From assembly GCF_016919405.1 (NCBI RefSeq), contig NZ_CP070352.1, forward strand, positions 620,001 to 684,000: DNA of 64,000 bases. The letters are read 5' to 3'. Each line of letters starts with the position of its first letter. The first letter of the stretch is position 1. The position numbers and the translations under genes are program-made. The DNA comes from Ensifer sp. PDNC004. Lineage in GTDB: Bacteria; Pseudomonadota; Alphaproteobacteria; Rhizobiales; Rhizobiaceae. Below are positions 57,584 through 64,000 of this stretch, piece by piece. The notes under the pieces were generated by a model, which was given only the letters and a program-made list of their open reading frames with translations, was not told the origin of the DNA and searched no databases.

Positions 57584-58077
57584 AACAATCGCCCGATGCG
57601 CGACGCATCGGCCTCAAACAAGATCAGAATGGAATATGCCGTTAAAAGGAACCCAGCTTCCGATGCGGCATCATTGGAGTGACCGTATCCTCAAGAGAGG
57701 AAGGGCCAAGGTCAGCGAAACGAAATCCGACCTGGAAAAGACGGAAAGGCGAAAATGCCCTTCCCGGCCCAGTTCAAGACTGCACGCCGCCCCGTAGGGA
57801 GAAAGAAAAAGCTGGCATCTTTTGAAACCTCCCTGATTGGTTGCCGGAAGACGACCTATAGGCGAATCGCGCGCAACCGCCAAGTGCAGAAATCTTGCCA
57901 TGGCGCCAATCGTCGCGGCTGCGACCTGTTTGCAACAGTCTCCGACATGCCTGCGGGGTTTACGGCGATGTGCTGTTCGTAGCAGAGTACGCCGCGATCG
58001 CCGACCGTGCATGGCACGAAACGGCGGCATCTTGGGGAGGGTCCGCGACAACCGGCACCGGCAATGACCGGACGGCG
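57584..58077. other. Divergent intergenic region before the PgtC-like gene (494 bp)
   Basis: Separates the leftward ABC exporter gene from the rightward signalling operon. Besides the leader hairpin at 57593-57611 I see an imperfect stem GGAAAGGC/GCCCTTCC near 57743-57764. No convincing promoter, RNA gene or coding frame stands out. The large size suggests more regulation than I can recognise. Confidence 0.4.
57593..57611 (-). promoter_or_regulatory. Leader hairpin before the ABC exporter start
   Basis: Perfect 8-bp inverted repeat CCGATGCG-CGA-CGCATCGG ends 9 bases from the exporter ATG and overlaps its GGGCGA ribosome site region on the - strand. It could be an operator or a structure limiting translation. 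Confidence 0.4.
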
Positions 58078-59451
58078 ATGCGCGGTGGGAGTGAATTGAC
58101 AAGGTTCCGGTTCTATATCGTTGCGGCCCTGCTGCCGCTGATCACCCTTGGCTTCATGGCGTTTGCAGGCCCTGCACGTGCTGTCGAGAAGCAGGAACTC
58201 GTGGTGGTCACTTCCTATCCGCCGTCCTTCTTCGAGCCCTTCCGCGCTGCGTTCGAACGCGCCAATGCCGACATGCGGGTGACGATCGTGCAGCGCAACA
58301 CCGCGAGCGCCAGCCGCTTCGTCATCGAGAAGGCGGATGTGCCGGCCGACATCTTCTGGGCCTCGGCGGCCGATGCCTTCGAGCTCCTTAAGCGCAACGG
58401 AAGCCTGCGTCCGATCGCGCCGCGCAATACCGGCGCACCGGATCATGTCTTCGGCTACCCGGTGAACGACCCCCAAGGCTATTATCTGGGCTTCGCGCTG
58501 TCGGGCTACGGCTTCGTCTATAATCCCGCCCATCTCGCGCGCAGCAAACTGCCCGTGCCGGAGAACTGGCAGGATCTGCTGAACCCCGTCTATTCCGGCC
58601 AGATCGGCATCACCACGCCGTCCCGCTCGGGCACGACGCACCTGATCGTCGAGGCCTTGCTGCAAACCTACGGGTGGGAGAAAGGCTGGGCGATGCTGTC
58701 GCAGCTCGGCGGCAATCTCTCGACGGTTACCGCCCGCAGCTTCGGAGTGGCCTCCGGCGTGGCGCAGCGGCGCTTCAGCATCGGCATCACCATCGACTTC
58801 CTCGCCACCTCGCCGGATTTCGCCGGCGCCCGCAATGTCTTCGTCCTGCCGCCCGACACCGTGTTCGTGCCCGCAAGCATCGGCATCCTCGCCCGGGCAC
58901 GCAACGTGCCGGGAGCGGAACGCTTCGTCGATTTCGTGCTTTCGGAGGCTGGCCAGAAACTCCTGCTGTCGCCGGCAATCGCCCGCATACCGGTCAACCC
59001 CGCGCTCAACAGCGGCCTGCTGCCGCAGGAAGACGGCGAGCGCCTGCTGAAATCCGGTGGCTTCGACGCGGCGCTTTCGGCGCGCAGATACGGGCTCGTC
59101 AATCTGATTTTCGACGACTATATCGTGCGCCGCCGGGCAACCCTTGCCCGCCTGTGGAAGAGGACCGCGGATCTGGAGGCGATGAACATCGAAGACGCGC
59201 AACGGCTGAGCATGCTGGCCCGGGCACGGCGGCTGTTGGGCCAGCCTCCGCTTTCAGCAAGCGAAGTCGCCAATGTGGCAGAGGCCCTGCAAGGCGAATG
59301 GCCGCGTGGCGTCGCCCGCTCCCCTGCCCATGCGGAACTCGCGAGCCGCCTGCGCGCGCGGATCGAGCAGAACCTCAGCGAGGCGGAACAGCTGCTGTCC
59401 TCGGCCGCGCGATCCGGCGACCCCGTCAATCTCCATCCGTGGCGGCAGTGA
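58078..59451 (+). CDS. PgtC-like periplasmic binding protein, candidate sensor subunit
   Basis: Exported binding-protein-like product of 457 residues. Start ATG 58078 or TTG 58096; the TTG has GGGAG four bases upstream. A signal peptide ends near PARAVEKQE. The binding fold has FWASAADAFELLKRNGSL, YPVNDPQGYYLGFALSGYGF, PSRSGTTHLIVEALLQTYGW and RSFGVASGV. A C-terminal helical extension (about the last 110 residues, Arg/Ala/Leu-rich) goes beyond a normal receptor. It is a paralogue of the protein at 62851. It stands before a kinase and an NtrC-type activator, the order of pgtC-pgtB-pgtA of Salmonella phosphoglycerate transport, where PgtC is a regulator. I infer a ligand-sensing partner of the kinase. 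Confidence 0.82.
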   Translation: MRGGSELTRFRFYIVAALLPLITLGFMAFAGPARAVEKQELVVVTSYPPSFFEPFRAAFERANADMRVTIVQRNTASASRFVIEKADVPADIFWASAADAFELLKRNGSLRPIAPRNTGAPDHVFGYPVNDPQGYYLGFALSGYGFVYNPAHLARSKLPVPENWQDLLNPVYSGQIGITTPSRSGTTHLIVEALLQTYGWEKGWAMLSQLGGNLSTVTARSFGVASGVAQRRFSIGITIDFLATSPDFAGARNVFVLPPDTVFVPASIGILARARNVPGAERFVDFVLSEAGQKLLLSPAIARIPVNPALNSGLLPQEDGERLLKSGGFDAALSARRYGLVNLIFDDYIVRRRATLARLWKRTADLEAMNIEDAQRLSMLARARRLLGQPPLSASEVANVAEALQGEWPRGVARSPAHAELASRLRARIEQNLSEAEQLLSSAARSGDPVNLHPWRQ

Positions 59452-59453
59452 CG

Positions 59454-61355
59454 ATGGCGGTGATCGAAACGACCGCCCGGCAGCCGCGCTGGCGCTTCGG
59501 TATTGGCGCCCGACTCGTGCTCGCCTTCGTCGCGATCGTCGGGCTCGCCGTCGGCGCCTGCGTGGTCGGCTGGCTTTCCTATGAGCGGTTGTCGGGCGAA
59601 CTGTCGCGCATGGCCGACGAGCAGATGCCGCAGCTCGCCTTCGCGTCGCGCCTCTCCAAGGCCGGGGCCGACATCGGCTCCGTGACGTCGGTGCTTGCCG
59701 GCGCCGAAAACCGCACCGAATACAACGAGATCCGCGCCGTCTACGCGACGCGCCTCCAGACCCTTCGAGCCCTACTTGAAGAAAACACGGCGCAATCGAG
59801 CACGGCGGCGCTGCTGCCGCTCGCCGAGGCCATCGGCGCCAATCTGAAAAAGATCGACCTTGCGGCCGGCAAGCGCTTCACTTTGCGCGAGGCCATGCGC
59901 TCGGACATCGACGAGCTTCGCTGGGTCCAGGCGGATCTTCTGGGAGAAGCCGACCCGTTGGTCGACGACATCCGCTTCAACATCGAAGCGGAAACCCGCA
60001 AGGGCCAGGGTGCGGCCGCGCTCGCCGAACAGCAGAAGAGCGAAGCGCTGTTGACCGTCGTCTCCCAGGCAAACCTTGCGACAGGTCTCATCGGGCGGCT
60101 CGTCAACGCCACGACCGAAGAGGAAATGCAGGAGACCAACGCCTTCCTCGGCGATAGCGCCGACGAACTGGCGAGCCGCATTCGCTCGCTCGACAGCTGG
60201 CCCGACAGCATCACCGTGCGGCAGCTGGCCGGGCGCATTCTCGACCAGTCCAACGCCTCGACGGGCATCCCCAATCGCAAGCGCTCGGAAATGCTGCAGG
60301 CCGGCACGCTTGCCGAACTTGCCAGCGAAAACGGCCGGTTGGTCGAAGAGCTTGGCCGCAAGATCGAGACGGAAGTGGTGGCGATCGAGGCGAGCGCCGG
60401 GGACGCCGCGCGACGCGCGGCCGCGGCAATCGAAACCGGGCGTAGCCTGCTCCTCGCGATCGCCATCCTCTCGGTGCTGGTGGCAAGCGCCATCGGCTAC
60501 TTCTACGTCCACCGCAACCTCATCGCCCGTATCCGCCTGCTGGCGACGGCCGCCGGCGCGATCAGCGCGGGCCGGCATTCCGCAGCGATCCCGCCGCCCG
60601 AAGCCGACGAACTCGGAGACCTCTCGCGCGCGCTGACCCTCTTTCGCCAGACCCGCGACGAGCTGATCCAGTCGGCAAAGCTTGCGGCCCTCGGCCAGAT
60701 GGCGGCCGGCATCGGCCACGAACTCAACCAGCCGCTGGCCGCCCTTCGCGCACACATCCACAACGCCGCCACGCTGATCGGCCGCGGCAAGGGCGAACAG
60801 GCGGTCAACAACCTCGACAAGATGAAGGGGCTGACGGGACGCATGGCCGACCAGATCAGCCATATCCGCCGCTTTGCCCGGCGGCCGGACGCGCAACTGC
60901 GGCCGGTCGATCTCACCGCAGCGGTGCGGGACGCCCTCAGCCTGCTCGAACATCGTTTCGAGGAGGAGAGCGTCGTGCTCGAGCTTTCGTTGCCGGAAGG
61001 CGGCCCGGCAATGGTCATGGCCGAACCGGTCCGGCTCGAGCAGGTCGCCGTCAATCTCATCGGCAATGCGCTTGACGCGGTCTCCGACCAACCGCTTCGG
61101 CGCGTGACCGTCGGCGTTGAAATGACCGGTGGCGCCGCCCGCCTGATCGTCGGCGACACCGGACACGGCATCGCCGCGGAAAACCTGCCGGCCGTGTTCG
61201 ATCCGTTCTTCACCACCAAGCCGGTTGGTTCGGGGCTCGGCCTCGGCCTGTCGATCTCCTACAACATCGTCAAGGATTTCGGCGGCGACATCGCAATCCT
61301 CGAGACCGGTCCGACCGGCACACGATTCCTCGTATCCCTGAAAGGCCTGGAATGA
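59454..61355 (+). CDS. PgtB-like sensor histidine kinase
   Basis: Inner-membrane kinase of 633 residues. Helix 1 (about 15-37), a long helical TorS-like periplasmic domain (about 38-335), helix 2 (about 337-358), HAMP, and a kinase core with H-box GIGHELNQPLAALRA (His422), N-box NLIGNALDAV, GDTGHGI and GLGLGLSISYNIV. The H-box style is that of DctB/NtrB-like partners of sigma-54 activators. Start ATG 59454; GTG 59448, overlapping the previous stop as GTGA, is an alternative. The helical sensor domain suits reading a periplasmic binding protein. It overlaps the regulator gene by four bases. Confidence 0.9.
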   Translation: MAVIETTARQPRWRFGIGARLVLAFVAIVGLAVGACVVGWLSYERLSGELSRMADEQMPQLAFASRLSKAGADIGSVTSVLAGAENRTEYNEIRAVYATRLQTLRALLEENTAQSSTAALLPLAEAIGANLKKIDLAAGKRFTLREAMRSDIDELRWVQADLLGEADPLVDDIRFNIEAETRKGQGAAALAEQQKSEALLTVVSQANLATGLIGRLVNATTEEEMQETNAFLGDSADELASRIRSLDSWPDSITVRQLAGRILDQSNASTGIPNRKRSEMLQAGTLAELASENGRLVEELGRKIETEVVAIEASAGDAARRAAAAIETGRSLLLAIAILSVLVASAIGYFYVHRNLIARIRLLATAAGAISAGRHSAAIPPPEADELGDLSRALTLFRQTRDELIQSAKLAALGQMAAGIGHELNQPLAALRAHIHNAATLIGRGKGEQAVNNLDKMKGLTGRMADQISHIRRFARRPDAQLRPVDLTAAVRDALSLLEHRFEEESVVLELSLPEGGPAMVMAEPVRLEQVAVNLIGNALDAVSDQPLRRVTVGVEMTGGAARLIVGDTGHGIAAENLPAVFDPFFTTKPVGSGLGLGLSISYNIVKDFGGDIAILETGPTGTRFLVSLKGLE

Positions 61356-62692
61356 GACCGGAAGCGGACATCATCCTGATCGACGACGACGCCAGCGTGC
61401 TTGAAGCTTGCTGCCAGGTGCTGGAACTGGAGGACTTCACCGTCGCCCCGCACGGTTCCGTCATCTCGGCGCTCGCCGGCCTGCGCGCCGACAGCGACAC
61501 CGTGATCGTATCGGATGTCCGCATGCCCGATCATGACGGCTTCGACCTGGTCGCTGCCGTGCGCAAGATCGATCCCGATATCCCGATCGTGCTGATGTCC
61601 GGGCATGGCGACATCCCAATGGCGCTGCGCGCGATGCGCGAAGGCGCCTGGGACTTCCTCGAAAAGCCGGCCGATCCGGTCCACCTGATCGAGACCGTGC
61701 GCCGCGCCCGCGATCACCGGCGGCTGCTGCTCGAAAACCGGCGACTGCGCCTCTCTGTGGACAAAGACGGCTGGGAAACACGGCTGATCGGGCACTCCGC
61801 GCCGATGGTGGCGCTGCGCGAAAAACTGCAGCGCATCGCGGCAGCCAGCGCCGACGTGCTGATCATCGGCGATACCGGCACCGGCAAGGAGGTCACGGCG
61901 CGCGCGCTGCACGATTTCAGTGGTCGCAAGGGCCGCTTCGTCGCTGTCAACTGCGGCGCCATTCCGGAGACCATGCTCGAATCCGAGCTTTTCGGGCACG
62001 AGGCCGGCGCCTTCACCGGCGCTCGGGAAAAACGCATCGGCAAGATCGAATATGCCGATGGCGGCACGCTGTTTCTCGACGAGATCGAGTCGATGCCGCT
62101 CGCAGCCCAGGTGCGGCTGCTGCGTGTGCTGCAGGAGCGCGTGATCGAGCGCCTCGGCTCGAACGTCGAACTGCCGGTCAATATCTGCGTGGTGGCGGCG
62201 ACCAAGGCCGACCTGCACGATGCCGCGCGACGGGGAGAATTCCGCGAAGACCTTGCCTATCGCCTCGACATCGCCCGGGTCGAACTGCCGCCGCTCGCGC
62301 GTCGCAAGGGCGATGTCGGCCTCCTGTTCCAGCATTTCCTTGGCCTTGCCGCCAAGCGCCAGGGACGCACGCCGCCACCGGTCGGCGCCGAGCATCTCGC
62401 CGACCTTAACGCCCGGCCCTGGCCCGGCAACGTGCGTGAGCTGCGCAATGTCGCGGAACGCTTCGTGCTCGGGCTCGAAGAGCGCCCGGACACCGAAGCC
62501 GCGACGGCAGGCGGCGAGACTCTGGAAGCACAGATGGATCGGCTGGAGCGGACCATCCTCATCAACAGTCTCGCCAGGCATGAAGGCCGCGTGGGTGCAA
62601 CCGCCGACGCGCTCGGGATCTCCCGCAAAACGCTCTATCTGAAGATGCGCAAGTTCGACATCGATGCCCGGGCCGATGGCGACGAGGGGTGA
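61352..62692 (+). CDS. PgtA/DctD-like sigma-54-dependent response regulator
   Basis: Activator of sigma-54 RNA polymerase, 446 residues. Receiver domain with DDD at 11-13 and Asp55 in VSDVRMPDHDG; AAA+ domain (about 145-375) with Walker A GDTGTGKE (173-180), GAFTGA (219-224), which contacts sigma-54, and Walker B GGTLFLDEIE; C-terminal Fis-type helix-turn-helix (GRVGATADALGISRKTLYLK). It is translationally coupled to the kinase. A consensus sigma-54 promoter and two 19-bp repeats lie directly downstream, before the importer receptor gene, and are its evident target. Confidence 0.95.
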   Translation: MRPEADIILIDDDASVLEACCQVLELEDFTVAPHGSVISALAGLRADSDTVIVSDVRMPDHDGFDLVAAVRKIDPDIPIVLMSGHGDIPMALRAMREGAWDFLEKPADPVHLIETVRRARDHRRLLLENRRLRLSVDKDGWETRLIGHSAPMVALREKLQRIAAASADVLIIGDTGTGKEVTARALHDFSGRKGRFVAVNCGAIPETMLESELFGHEAGAFTGAREKRIGKIEYADGGTLFLDEIESMPLAAQVRLLRVLQERVIERLGSNVELPVNICVVAATKADLHDAARRGEFREDLAYRLDIARVELPPLARRKGDVGLLFQHFLGLAAKRQGRTPPPVGAEHLADLNARPWPGNVRELRNVAERFVLGLEERPDTEAATAGGETLEAQMDRLERTILINSLARHEGRVGATADALGISRKTLYLKMRKFDIDARADGDEG

Positions 62693-62743
62693 TGTTACCC
62701 TTTTGACCCCGCCTCACCGGCCCCGATGTTACCTTTCTTACCC
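62691..62743 (+). promoter_or_regulatory. Two 19-bp direct repeats, probable activator binding sites
   Basis: GATGTTACCCTTTTGACCC (62691-62709) and GATGTTACCTTTCTTACCC (62725-62743) differ at three positions and start 34 bp apart, about three helical turns. They lie 42-94 bp upstream of the -24 element, the usual place for NtrC-family upstream sites. The first overlaps the regulator stop codon. Confidence 0.78.
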
Positions 62744-62760
62744 ATTCTCAGCTGAAATCG

Positions 62761-62779
62761 CCCGGTTTTCCGGGTTTTT
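62761..62779 (+). terminator. Short terminator after the activator gene
   Basis: CCCGG-TTTT-CCGGG followed by TTTTT, located between the activator stop and the sigma-54 promoter. It would stop read-through from the regulatory genes so that the importer depends on its own promoter. The stem is only 5 bp. Confidence 0.5.
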
Positions 62780-62784
62780 CGATC

Positions 62785-62800
62785 TGGCACGGGCCTTGCT
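62785..62800 (+). promoter_or_regulatory. Consensus sigma-54 promoter of the importer receptor gene
   Basis: TGGCACGGGCCTTGCT matches the -24/-12 consensus exactly (TGGCAC, five bases, TTGCT). The expected start site is near 62810, about 40 bases before the ATG. The adjacent sigma-54 activator gene and repeats make this a confident regulatory link. Confidence 0.93.
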
Positions 62801-62813
62801 CTCAAGAGGACAG

Positions 62814-62830
62814 CCGCCAAGCATTGGCGG
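62814..62830 (+). promoter_or_regulatory. 5' leader hairpin of the receptor mRNA
   Basis: Perfect 7-bp stem CCGCCAA-GCA-TTGGCGG beginning a few bases after the predicted transcription start and ending 7 bases before the GGGAGGAG ribosome site. It probably protects the 5' end of the message. Confidence 0.5.
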
Positions 62831-62850
62831 TCTATTGGGAGGAGATACCT

Positions 62851-64000
62851 ATGTTGAAAACCATCGCAGCAGCGATGCTGATGTCGGCTGCCTTCATCGT
62901 GACGGCCCACGCGCAAGACGGCGGCAAGGTGACGATCGTCACCTCGTTCTCCAAGGACGTGACCGACCCGTTCAAGGCCGGCTTCGAGGCCGCCAACCCC
63001 GGCTTCACCCTCGACGTCCAGAACAAGAGCACCAGCTCGGGCGTCAAGTACATCGACGAGACCAAGGTCAACAACCAGGTCGACCTGTTCTGGGCATCGG
63101 CCCCTGACGCCTTCGACAGCCTGAAGAGCAGGCAATTGCTCGCCAAGTTCACCCCGTCGGTGACGGGCCTGCCGGAAAAGGTCGGCTCCTATCCGGTCAA
63201 CGATCCTGATGGTTTCTACTTCGGCTTTGCCGCATCGGGCTACGGCATCATGTCGAATGACCGCTACTTGGAAGCCAACAATCTGCCGAAGCCGGCCGAG
63301 TGGGGCGATCTCGCCAAGCCGGAATATTTCGACCACGTCGCCATCGCCGCCCCGTCGCGTTCCGGAACCACACACCTGACGATCGAGACGATCCTGCAGG
63401 GCGAAGGCTGGGACAAGGGCTGGGGTACGCTGAAAGGCATCGGCGGCAACCTCCAGCAGGTGACCGAACGCTCCTTCGGTGTTCCGGATGCGGTCAACTC
63501 CGGCCAGACCGGCATCGGCATCGTCATCGACTTCTTCGCCTTCTCGGCCCAGGCGAGCGGCTTCCCGGTCAGCTTCGCCTATCCGTCGGTGACGACGGTC
63601 GTTCCGGCCAATATCGGCATCGTCGCCAATGCGCCGAACCAGGCCGGTGCCGAGGCCTTCGTCAACTACATCCTGTCGGAGAAGGGCCAGGAAGTCCTGC
63701 TCGAGCCGGCCATCCGTCGCCTGCCGATCAACCCGGCGCTCTACGCCAAGGCGCCCGAAGGCTTCCCGAACCCCTTCAAGGATCCGCGCTTCCAGTCGAT
63801 GATCACCTTTGACAGCGACGTTTCGAAGCAGCGCACGGATGTTGTCGACACGCTGTTCGACCAGCTGATTTCCTTCCAGCTCGAAAACCTCAAGGGCGCC
63901 ACTCAGGCGATCCATGCGGCCGAAAAGGCGCTTGCCGCCAACGAGCAGCCGGCCACCCGCGCACTTCTCGATGAAGCCAAGGCCCTGGTTGCCGCCATGC
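62851..64000 (+). CDS. ABC importer substrate-binding protein, AfuA/Fbp-like (cut by window edge)
   Basis: Periplasmic receptor, 383 residues visible and running off the right edge. Start ATG 62851 has GGGAGGAG. Signal peptide about 1-21 (VTAHAQDGG). The fold shows TSFSKDVTDPFKAGFEA, LFWASAPDAFDSLKS, YPVNDPDGFYFGFAASGYGI, PSRSGTTHLTIETILQGEGW and RSFGVPDAV. It closely resembles the PgtC-like protein at 58078, including a helical C-terminal tail. It is driven by the sigma-54 promoter and should begin an ABC importer operon whose permease and ATPase genes lie beyond the window. A phosphorylated small molecule is the suggested ligand by analogy with the pgt system. Confidence 0.88.
   Translation, partial: MLKTIAAAMLMSAAFIVTAHAQDGGKVTIVTSFSKDVTDPFKAGFEAANPGFTLDVQNKSTSSGVKYIDETKVNNQVDLFWASAPDAFDSLKSRQLLAKFTPSVTGLPEKVGSYPVNDPDGFYFGFAASGYGIMSNDRYLEANNLPKPAEWGDLAKPEYFDHVAIAAPSRSGTTHLTIETILQGEGWDKGWGTLKGIGGNLQQVTERSFGVPDAVNSGQTGIGIVIDFFAFSAQASGFPVSFAYPSVTTVVPANIGIVANAPNQAGAEAFVNYILSEKGQEVLLEPAIRRLPINPALYAKAPEGFPNPFKDPRFQSMITFDSDVSKQRTDVVDTLFDQLISFQLENLKGATQAIHAAEKALAANEQPATRALLDEAKALVAAM

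Follow-up and report, generated by a model that had tools for sequence, protein, structure and literature searches.

The right-hand end (from position 57895) of a 64,000-nucleotide stretch of Ensifer sp. PDNC004 (contig NZ_CP070352.1, positions 620,001 to 684,000; hereafter the window) enters what is probably a system for the substrate-induced uptake of a small phosphorylated acid. In this system, a dedicated sensor solute-binding protein (SBP), a kinase and a response regulator would switch on an ATP-binding cassette (ABC) importer that has a sister SBP of its own (SBP2). As part of the same explanation, and with the same confidence, we propose that a single ancient duplication gave rise to the sensor and the transport SBP. 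The initial annotation of the window had seen here a unit like PgtCBA of Salmonella rewired to an ABC importer. The ABC target was confirmed; the rewiring "here" was not, as the ABC-linked sigma-54 form is itself widespread.

The order SBP, kinase, NtrC-type regulator and second SBP, all on the forward strand, was borne out by the open reading frames (ORFs) and their domains (Table 1). The first gene had been started at 57895; the TTG at 58096, which by eye follows GGGAG, is a likelier start, with the ATG at 58078 as the alternative. Two hydrophobic helices of the kinase (about residues 13-44 and 322-354) flank a periplasmic domain (about residues 45-320) that is all-helical in a predicted structure model. 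This domain matched TorS in a fold search, the match list of which was dominated by the kinase core. TorS surfaced solely in the structural search: when the PDB was searched with the kinase sequence profile, the 60 listed of 121 matches were all to kinases, and none of these started before profile position 362. TorS is a hybrid kinase of trimethylamine N-oxide respiration that works with another class of regulator, and TorT is the SBP partner of its helical periplasmic domain in E. coli. The regulator has the architecture of an NtrC-family sigma-54 enhancer-binding protein. SBP2 is 44% identical to the sensor SBP, against 24-34% for the remaining matches in the genome, which agrees with the proposal that the two genes are paralogous. 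The inference of an ABC importer holds because the permease and ATPase genes directly follow SBP2 past the end of the window, with a histidine phosphatase gene after them; a lack of permease and ATPase genes, which would have spoken against it, is thus ruled out.

Table 1. Features of the window, of the adjoining DNA (C1 coordinates) and of PgtA-type regulators in other loci
Feature	Position	Strand	Remarks
Sensor SBP, PgtC-like, SBP_bac_6 family	58096..59451	+	451 aa from TTG 58096; 457 aa from ATG 58078
Sensor histidine kinase	59454..61355	+	633 aa; transmembrane helix, all-helical TorS-like periplasmic domain, transmembrane helix, HAMP, HisKA (H422), HATPase
NtrC-family response regulator	61352..62692	+	Receiver, AAA+ with GAFTGA (nt 62006-62023), Fis-type helix-turn-helix
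Predicted upstream activator site 1	62692..62711	+	ATGTTACC-N4-TGACCCAT, 2/16 mismatches; overlaps the regulator stop codon
Predicted upstream activator site 2	62726..62745	+	1/16 mismatches; 34 bp from site 1
Intrinsic terminator-like hairpin and T run	62760..62779	+	Between the activator sites and the promoter
Sigma-54 promoter	62785..62800	+	TGGCACGGGCCTTGCT, 0 mismatches
Transport SBP (SBP2)	62851..64000, continuing to C1:684170	+	439 aa; runs past the window
Fused ABC permease	C1:684293-686002	same as SBP2	569 aa; beyond the window
ABC ATPase	C1:686019-687119	same as SBP2	366 aa; beyond the window
Histidine phosphatase (PF00300)	about C1:687209-687871	same as SBP2	Beyond the window
PgtA-type regulator, L039	10241-11494		No GAFTGA
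PgtA-type regulator, L043	11244-12494		No GAFTGA
PgtA-type regulator, L044	11547-12815		No GAFTGA
PgtA-type regulators, L135 and L136			No GAFTGA

Upstream of SBP2, the exact sigma-54 promoter reported in the initial annotation was found again, and the match to TGGCACGGGCCTTGCT is the single exact one in the 64 kb, against an average of 0.03 in shuffled sequences. The two 19-bp repeats were also recovered, at 62691 and 62725 (16/19 positions identical by eye; 77% identity over 26 bp), and the two predicted activator sites begin 93 bp (site 1) and 59 bp (site 2) ahead of the first base of the promoter. A -24/-12 promoter with upstream sites, as in NtrC-family systems, stands at the target operon. 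The terminator had been placed ahead of the repeats, and this order is reversed: the repeats lie 5' of the hairpin. Taken alone, the hairpin is weak, with five comparable sites in the region and an average of 4.0 in shuffles.

To see how far this layout extends, a scan of public genomes was made with an alignment of 20 SBPs. It gave at least 581 encoding stretches, of which the best 80 by similarity to the window were analysed. An SBP gene came immediately after the regulator gene in 51 of these. The hosts include Ensifer, Aminobacter, Mesorhizobium, Pseudochrobactrum, Microvirga, Bosea, Chelatococcus, Ancylobacter, Azospirillum, Vibrio, Grimontia and several metagenome-assembled genomes. Altogether, 59 loci with a regulator followed by an SBP were collected, and 56 remained after removal of three duplicates, mostly from alphaproteobacteria, with vibrios and scattered metagenome-assembled genomes. 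All six genes were recognised in 49 of the 56, a count made without the ORF-overlap filter, which had concealed some genes (the window sensor, for example) in the gene maps, the promoter scan and the survey of neighbour clusters. The seven incomplete loci lack the sensor and/or kinase (L037, L088, L117), the ATPase (L063, L075, L097) or both permease and ATPase (L061), and in three Devosia loci the ABC genes stand ahead of the signalling genes. Within the same order as the window, a relative of the kinase (E <= 1e-60) was found in 10 of 297 genomes. Nine neighbourhoods besides the window were fetched: four have the full order from sensor SBP to ATPase (L030, L031, L033, L034), L037 begins inside the kinase and runs on to the ATPase, L032 is cut inside the regulator, L038 has kinase and regulator but no recognised SBP or permease, and the ABC genes are missing from L035 and L036. 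Because the same layout occurs in many families, we reject a local rewiring in the Ensifer strain.

The promoter and its upstream sites are conserved along with the genes. When TGGCACRNNNNTTGCW (12 fixed positions, with simple shuffles as control) was scanned against the regions between regulator and SBP2 (251-431 bp), a site with at most two mismatches was present in 58 of 59 and one with at most one mismatch in 49, while shuffles averaged 3.8 mismatches; with the duplicates removed, the figure is 55 of 56 loci. The same scan upstream of sensor SBPs (431 bp, in one case 370) found a site in 4 of 60, a count that retains the duplicates, and, for ABC SBPs whose gene is not immediately preceded by a regulator gene, in 5 of 19, three of which are the rearranged Devosia loci. 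GAFTGA or a near form (GSFTGA, GAFTNA, GAFTSA) is present in 55 of the 56 regulators, each of them accompanied by a sigma-54 site; the sole exception, L040 of Paracoccus denitrificans, has neither loop nor site. With at most 5 of 16 mismatches allowed, ATGTTACC-N4-TGACCCAT occurs at least once in 46/56 loci and at least twice in 33/56, and in 32 of these 33 the paired sites are 31-34 bp apart, about three helical turns. Among 1,120 shuffles, 2.7% had one copy and none had two. Distant loci drift towards the dyad GGGTCA-N4-TGACCC, found with at most three mismatches in 14/56 loci versus 5% of shuffles. Of the ten loci without ATGTTACC-N4-TGACCCAT, seven have this dyad, and three (L081, L105, L119) have neither form. 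Since the sigma-54 site and the repeats both hold their position in distant relatives, we conclude that those of the window are not chance matches.

The ligand is probably some phosphorus-bearing organic acid or ester. In a fold search, the SBP fold was nearest to the organophosphate binders AfuA, VcA0625 and P5PA, above iron and citrate proteins, so that the clustering with citrate or iron systems that had been named as an adverse outcome was not observed. By the same ranking, an iron or citrate SBP was rejected. A phosphorylated C2 or C3 acid, namely 3-phosphoglycerate (3PG), 2-phosphoglycerate (2PG), phosphoenolpyruvate (PEP) or perhaps phosphoglycolate, is the most likely candidate, at about even odds. 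PgtC senses 3PG (PMC11077982), and PgtP takes up 2PG, 3PG and PEP (PMC7873081; these and the papers on AfuA and the Cua system are cited from excerpts). Downstream of the importer genes, 23 of 53 cassettes have a histidine phosphatase (21), a phosphoglycolate phosphatase (9) and/or a pyruvate kinase (4). For this count, four further cassettes with less than 700 bp past the ATPase were dropped and the end of the ATPase was estimated in nine without a kept ORF; the reference enzymes come from counted loci (L011, L040, L042, L073), which thus match themselves. A representative phosphoglycolate phosphatase scored 218.7 bits against a cut-off of 180. Pyruvate kinase also adjoins PgtP-like major facilitator superfamily (MFS) genes, in V. 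fluvialis (L044, annotated) and in L135 (Pfam). Pyridoxal phosphate, a glycerol phosphate or some other phosphate ester would have a modest chance of being the ligand: a pyridoxal gene is a neighbour in a single locus, whereas phosphoglycolate phosphatase and pyruvate kinase recur. Other neighbour clusters (of at least four loci, beyond the phosphatases, pyruvate kinase and a phosphonate-type SBP) were mostly overlapping-frame noise or unrelated genes, partly identified, and by eye no further phosphate genes were recognised after the cassettes of L105, L111, L120, L117 and L101.

Sensor and transport SBPs fall, with one exception, into separate groups. In a maximum-likelihood tree of 136 SBPs (those under 380 residues in the called ORF were excluded from the trees), 56 sensors and three PgtC proteins lay on one side of a branch with a Shimodaira-Hasegawa-like approximate likelihood ratio test (SH-aLRT) support of 98, and 73 of 74 ABC-linked SBPs formed another group (98), with the transport SBP of L113 nearer the root. 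A second tree of 110 rows, thinned of 18 loci as near relatives and supplemented with the window sensor (added by hand), a Paracoccus sensor and a sensor linked to a tripartite tricarboxylate transporter (TTT), gave the sensor side a support of 99. The upstream SBP thus groups with enteric PgtC, as had been proposed; the exact placement of PgtC is unsure because these were quick trees with flagged long branches. That the upstream SBP is a second transport SBP of the same importer, the kinase sensing the ligand directly, is unlikely. The pocket residues are common to both SBPs, and in the Cua system the sugar was still perceived when only kinase and regulator were present (PMC10384115). However, the sensor forms a lineage of its own, 56 of 60 sensor genes have no sigma-54 site ahead of them, the periplasmic domain of the kinase resembles TorS, and PgtC of Salmonella acts as a sensor beside an MFS transporter (PMC11077982). 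The upstream SBP probably only senses.

The pockets were compared with that of AfuA, whose phosphate is ringed by S37, G38, T60, S148-G149-T150 and G185 (PMC4546632; PMC8427247) and whose sugar is held by H205, D206 and E229, which were found essential (PMC4546632). The comparison, a sequence alignment rather than a superposition, covered 74 transport SBPs, 58 sensors (that of the window added by hand) and 5 PgtC-type proteins. Fold and phosphate site agree with those of AfuA. The S-G-T motif is kept in 74/74 transport SBPs and 57/58 sensors (Ser for Thr in the remaining one), T61 is invariant in both groups and Ser or Thr in 4/5 PgtC-type proteins, and every one of the 137 proteins has R207, S208 and D227 (SBP2 numbering). 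AfuA T60 is not conserved: transport SBPs have Ala there, and sensors either Ala or Ser. R170 and R207 are invariant across sensors and transporters and would fit an acidic ligand. It is quite improbable that importer and sensor handle cyclic sugar phosphates (hexose or heptose phosphates) in the manner of AfuABC. Of the sugar residues, D206 alone is kept throughout: the H205 position is occupied by Ile or Val in every protein (by Ile in 74/74 transport SBPs and in both SBPs of the window; among the 58 sensors, by Ile in 53 and Val in 5), and that of E229 is Val in 64/74 transport SBPs (SBP2 among them) and Asp (20) or Glu (17) in many sensors, with Asp in that of the window.

Still less probable is the importer of iron or 2-aminoethylphosphonate named by automatic annotation: permeases of the family are annotated "iron ABC transporter permease" and the best NCBIfam models are phnS2 for both SBPs and PhnT2 for the ATPase, but phnS2 (TIGR03261) reached 126.9 and 109.9 bits against a cut-off of 392.75 and PhnT2 379 against 458, ferric-binding proteins stand about 5 Z units under AfuA, and the sensor groups with PgtC. 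A phosphonate-type SBP gene (PF12974, confirmed in two members; cluster 9) does lie within 4 kb of the module in five loci (L064, L065, L066, L072, L075), in the first two right after the cassette. It is, however, of a different SBP family and stands beside few loci only.

The Pgt system of Salmonella and other enterics has the same order of sensor SBP, kinase and regulator in one direction, sensor SBPs on the same side of the supported branch, mostly the same pocket residues and similar dyad sites: GGGTCA-N4-TGACCC occurs beside pgtP with no mismatch in Providencia and two in an E. coli plasmid and V. fluvialis. The DNA-binding tails of the window regulator and PgtA are clearly related. In contrast to the window, Pgt drives an MFS transporter, PgtP. 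GAFTGA is absent from the regulator in 5/5 MFS-linked loci (the E. coli plasmid, Providencia, V. fluvialis, L135 and L136; Salmonella PgtA is not among them), and the region between the MFS gene and the PgtC-type gene showed no sigma-54 site with two or fewer mismatches in any of the five. The transporters of L135 and L136 are 28-29% identical to PgtP. The missing loop is at odds with the description of PgtA as contacting sigma-54. In the main text of a study of the Salmonella sigma-54 regulon (PMC3844500), supplements being outside the search, "pgt" does not occur, nor does "Pgt" in the main text of a survey of Azospirillum two-component systems.

A third transporter class was found in L035 and L036, which are of one family. 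Downstream of the signalling trio stand a sigma-54 site (1 and 0 mismatches), sites resembling the activator sites, and the TTT genes tctC and tctA (assigned by a Pfam run on L035 and by similarity to it in L036). Phosphate transporter genes (a Na/Pi cotransporter; PHO4 with a DUF47 partner) lie near this module, at L035 5210-6967 and L036 2732-4896. Six further loci, L137-L142, have PgtB-like kinase/regulator pairs without an adjacent PgtC-like SBP. The pair of L137 has a GDPD gene and an ABC importer of phosphonate type as neighbours (Pfam), L141 is alike by eye, and sigma-54-like sites with at most one mismatch are present in L137, L138, L140 and L141.

Because the PgtA-type regulators are without the loop and the ABC form is widely spread, the sigma-54/ABC form looks older and the MFS-linked form derived, a sequence-based judgement that does not draw on the relative abundance of the two. 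The Salmonella Pgt system accordingly looks like an altered relative of a widespread six-gene unit. We lean slightly towards a fuller account, in which an organophosphate-sensing module, old and widespread, would have given rise to PgtCBA as its MFS-linked offshoot. The sensor SBP of this module would have split once from an ABC SBP and been connected to paired dyads by way of a TorS-like kinase and a sigma-54 activator, and the module would later have moved to TTT and MFS transporters. In the MFS branch the activator would have lost its sigma-54 contact loop, and Salmonella PgtA would therefore act without sigma-54.

Several observations weigh against the proposed explanation. The proposed kinship of the regulatory proteins with PgtA and PgtB was upheld in part: PgtB (NF047794) is the best NCBIfam model for the kinase, but the score, 211.8 bits with the best stretch in the kinase core, is far below the cut-off of 1000, and the regulator, at 289.2 bits against a PgtA (NF047793) cut-off of 650, prefers the ntrC model (358.8). 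A search of 398 Pseudomonadota genomes with the PgtB model gave seven genomes at E <= 1e-60, none above the cut-off; among 14 control genomes E. coli alone matched, above the cut-off. Identity between PgtC and the sensor is no more than about 28%, and the branches on which PgtC sits are long and were flagged by the tree tool. In 30 of the 53 cassettes, including L105, L111, L120 and L125 (Vibrio/Grimontia), none of the three enzymes was found within about 1.7 kb. The signalling trio of L045 and L050 (Aminobacter) has no adjacent ABC operon of the family or sigma-54 site, and in L038 kinase and regulator are present and no SBP2 or permease was recognised in the 3.3 kb downstream; as these loci depart from it, the link between signalling and importer is not universal. 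Finally, the 80 stretches were picked by similarity to the window from at least 581, so that the sample leans to the window form.

Taken as a substrate-induced uptake system, the locus could work as follows. The upstream SBP, a dedicated sensor, would in its ligand-bound form engage the TorS-like helical domain of the kinase, and the kinase would phosphorylate the NtrC-type regulator. The regulator would bind the two 20-bp sites, which are separated by about three helical turns, and would use its GAFTGA loop to activate sigma-54 RNA polymerase at the promoter downstream of them. SBP2, the fused permease, the ATPase and, here, the phosphatase would thus be switched on, and the phosphatase would dephosphorylate the imported compound.

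The window system works like Pgt plus AfuABC and is outside Pgt in the strict sense, because its proteins score below the model cut-offs and its transporter is of another class. AfuA, of the AfuABC importer of Actinobacillus and Citrobacter rodentium, is the closest solved SBP in fold and phosphate pocket; the window family differs in the replacement of H205 throughout and of E229 in most transport SBPs, and in its own PgtCBA-type regulation. A worked-out precedent for dividing sensing and transport between two SBPs is the pair CuaD and CuaA of Ruminiclostridium cellulolyticum, where the two-component system of CuaDSR turns on the importer CuaABC (PMC10384115). The likeness lies in the arrangement; the Cua ligand is cellobiose, and sigma-54 is unmentioned in the excerpts of that report. 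In the open literature, subscription journals being mostly outside the search, no description of the ABC-linked form appeared among the papers listed. On this reading, the origin of the "unconventional" PgtC sensor of Salmonella becomes open to test, importers that are annotated as iron transporters acquire a predicted function, ligand class, operator and promoter, and one sensing module spans three transporter classes (ABC, TTT and MFS).

Past the histidine phosphatase gene, the opposite strand encodes a protein of 1126 aa (L011 10963-14340, - strand; C1:687962-691339) that combines an endonuclease/exonuclease/phosphatase domain with an autotransporter barrel; a gene for a GlpR/DeoR-type regulator comes next. 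This protein might free phosphate esters outside the cell for the importer. Among the other loci, the variant cassette of Paracoccus denitrificans (L040 1-4256) is adjoined, by annotation, by a second ABC importer, an inositol monophosphatase, an RpiR regulator and the acid phosphatase AphA. Azospirillum sp. TSH58 (L046 8947-10235) has a sensor-like SBP split across two reading frames, with no adjacent annotated kinase. Lastly, a contig labelled Euryarchaeota (L103) bears a six-gene cassette of proteobacterial type, and the label is probably a binning error.

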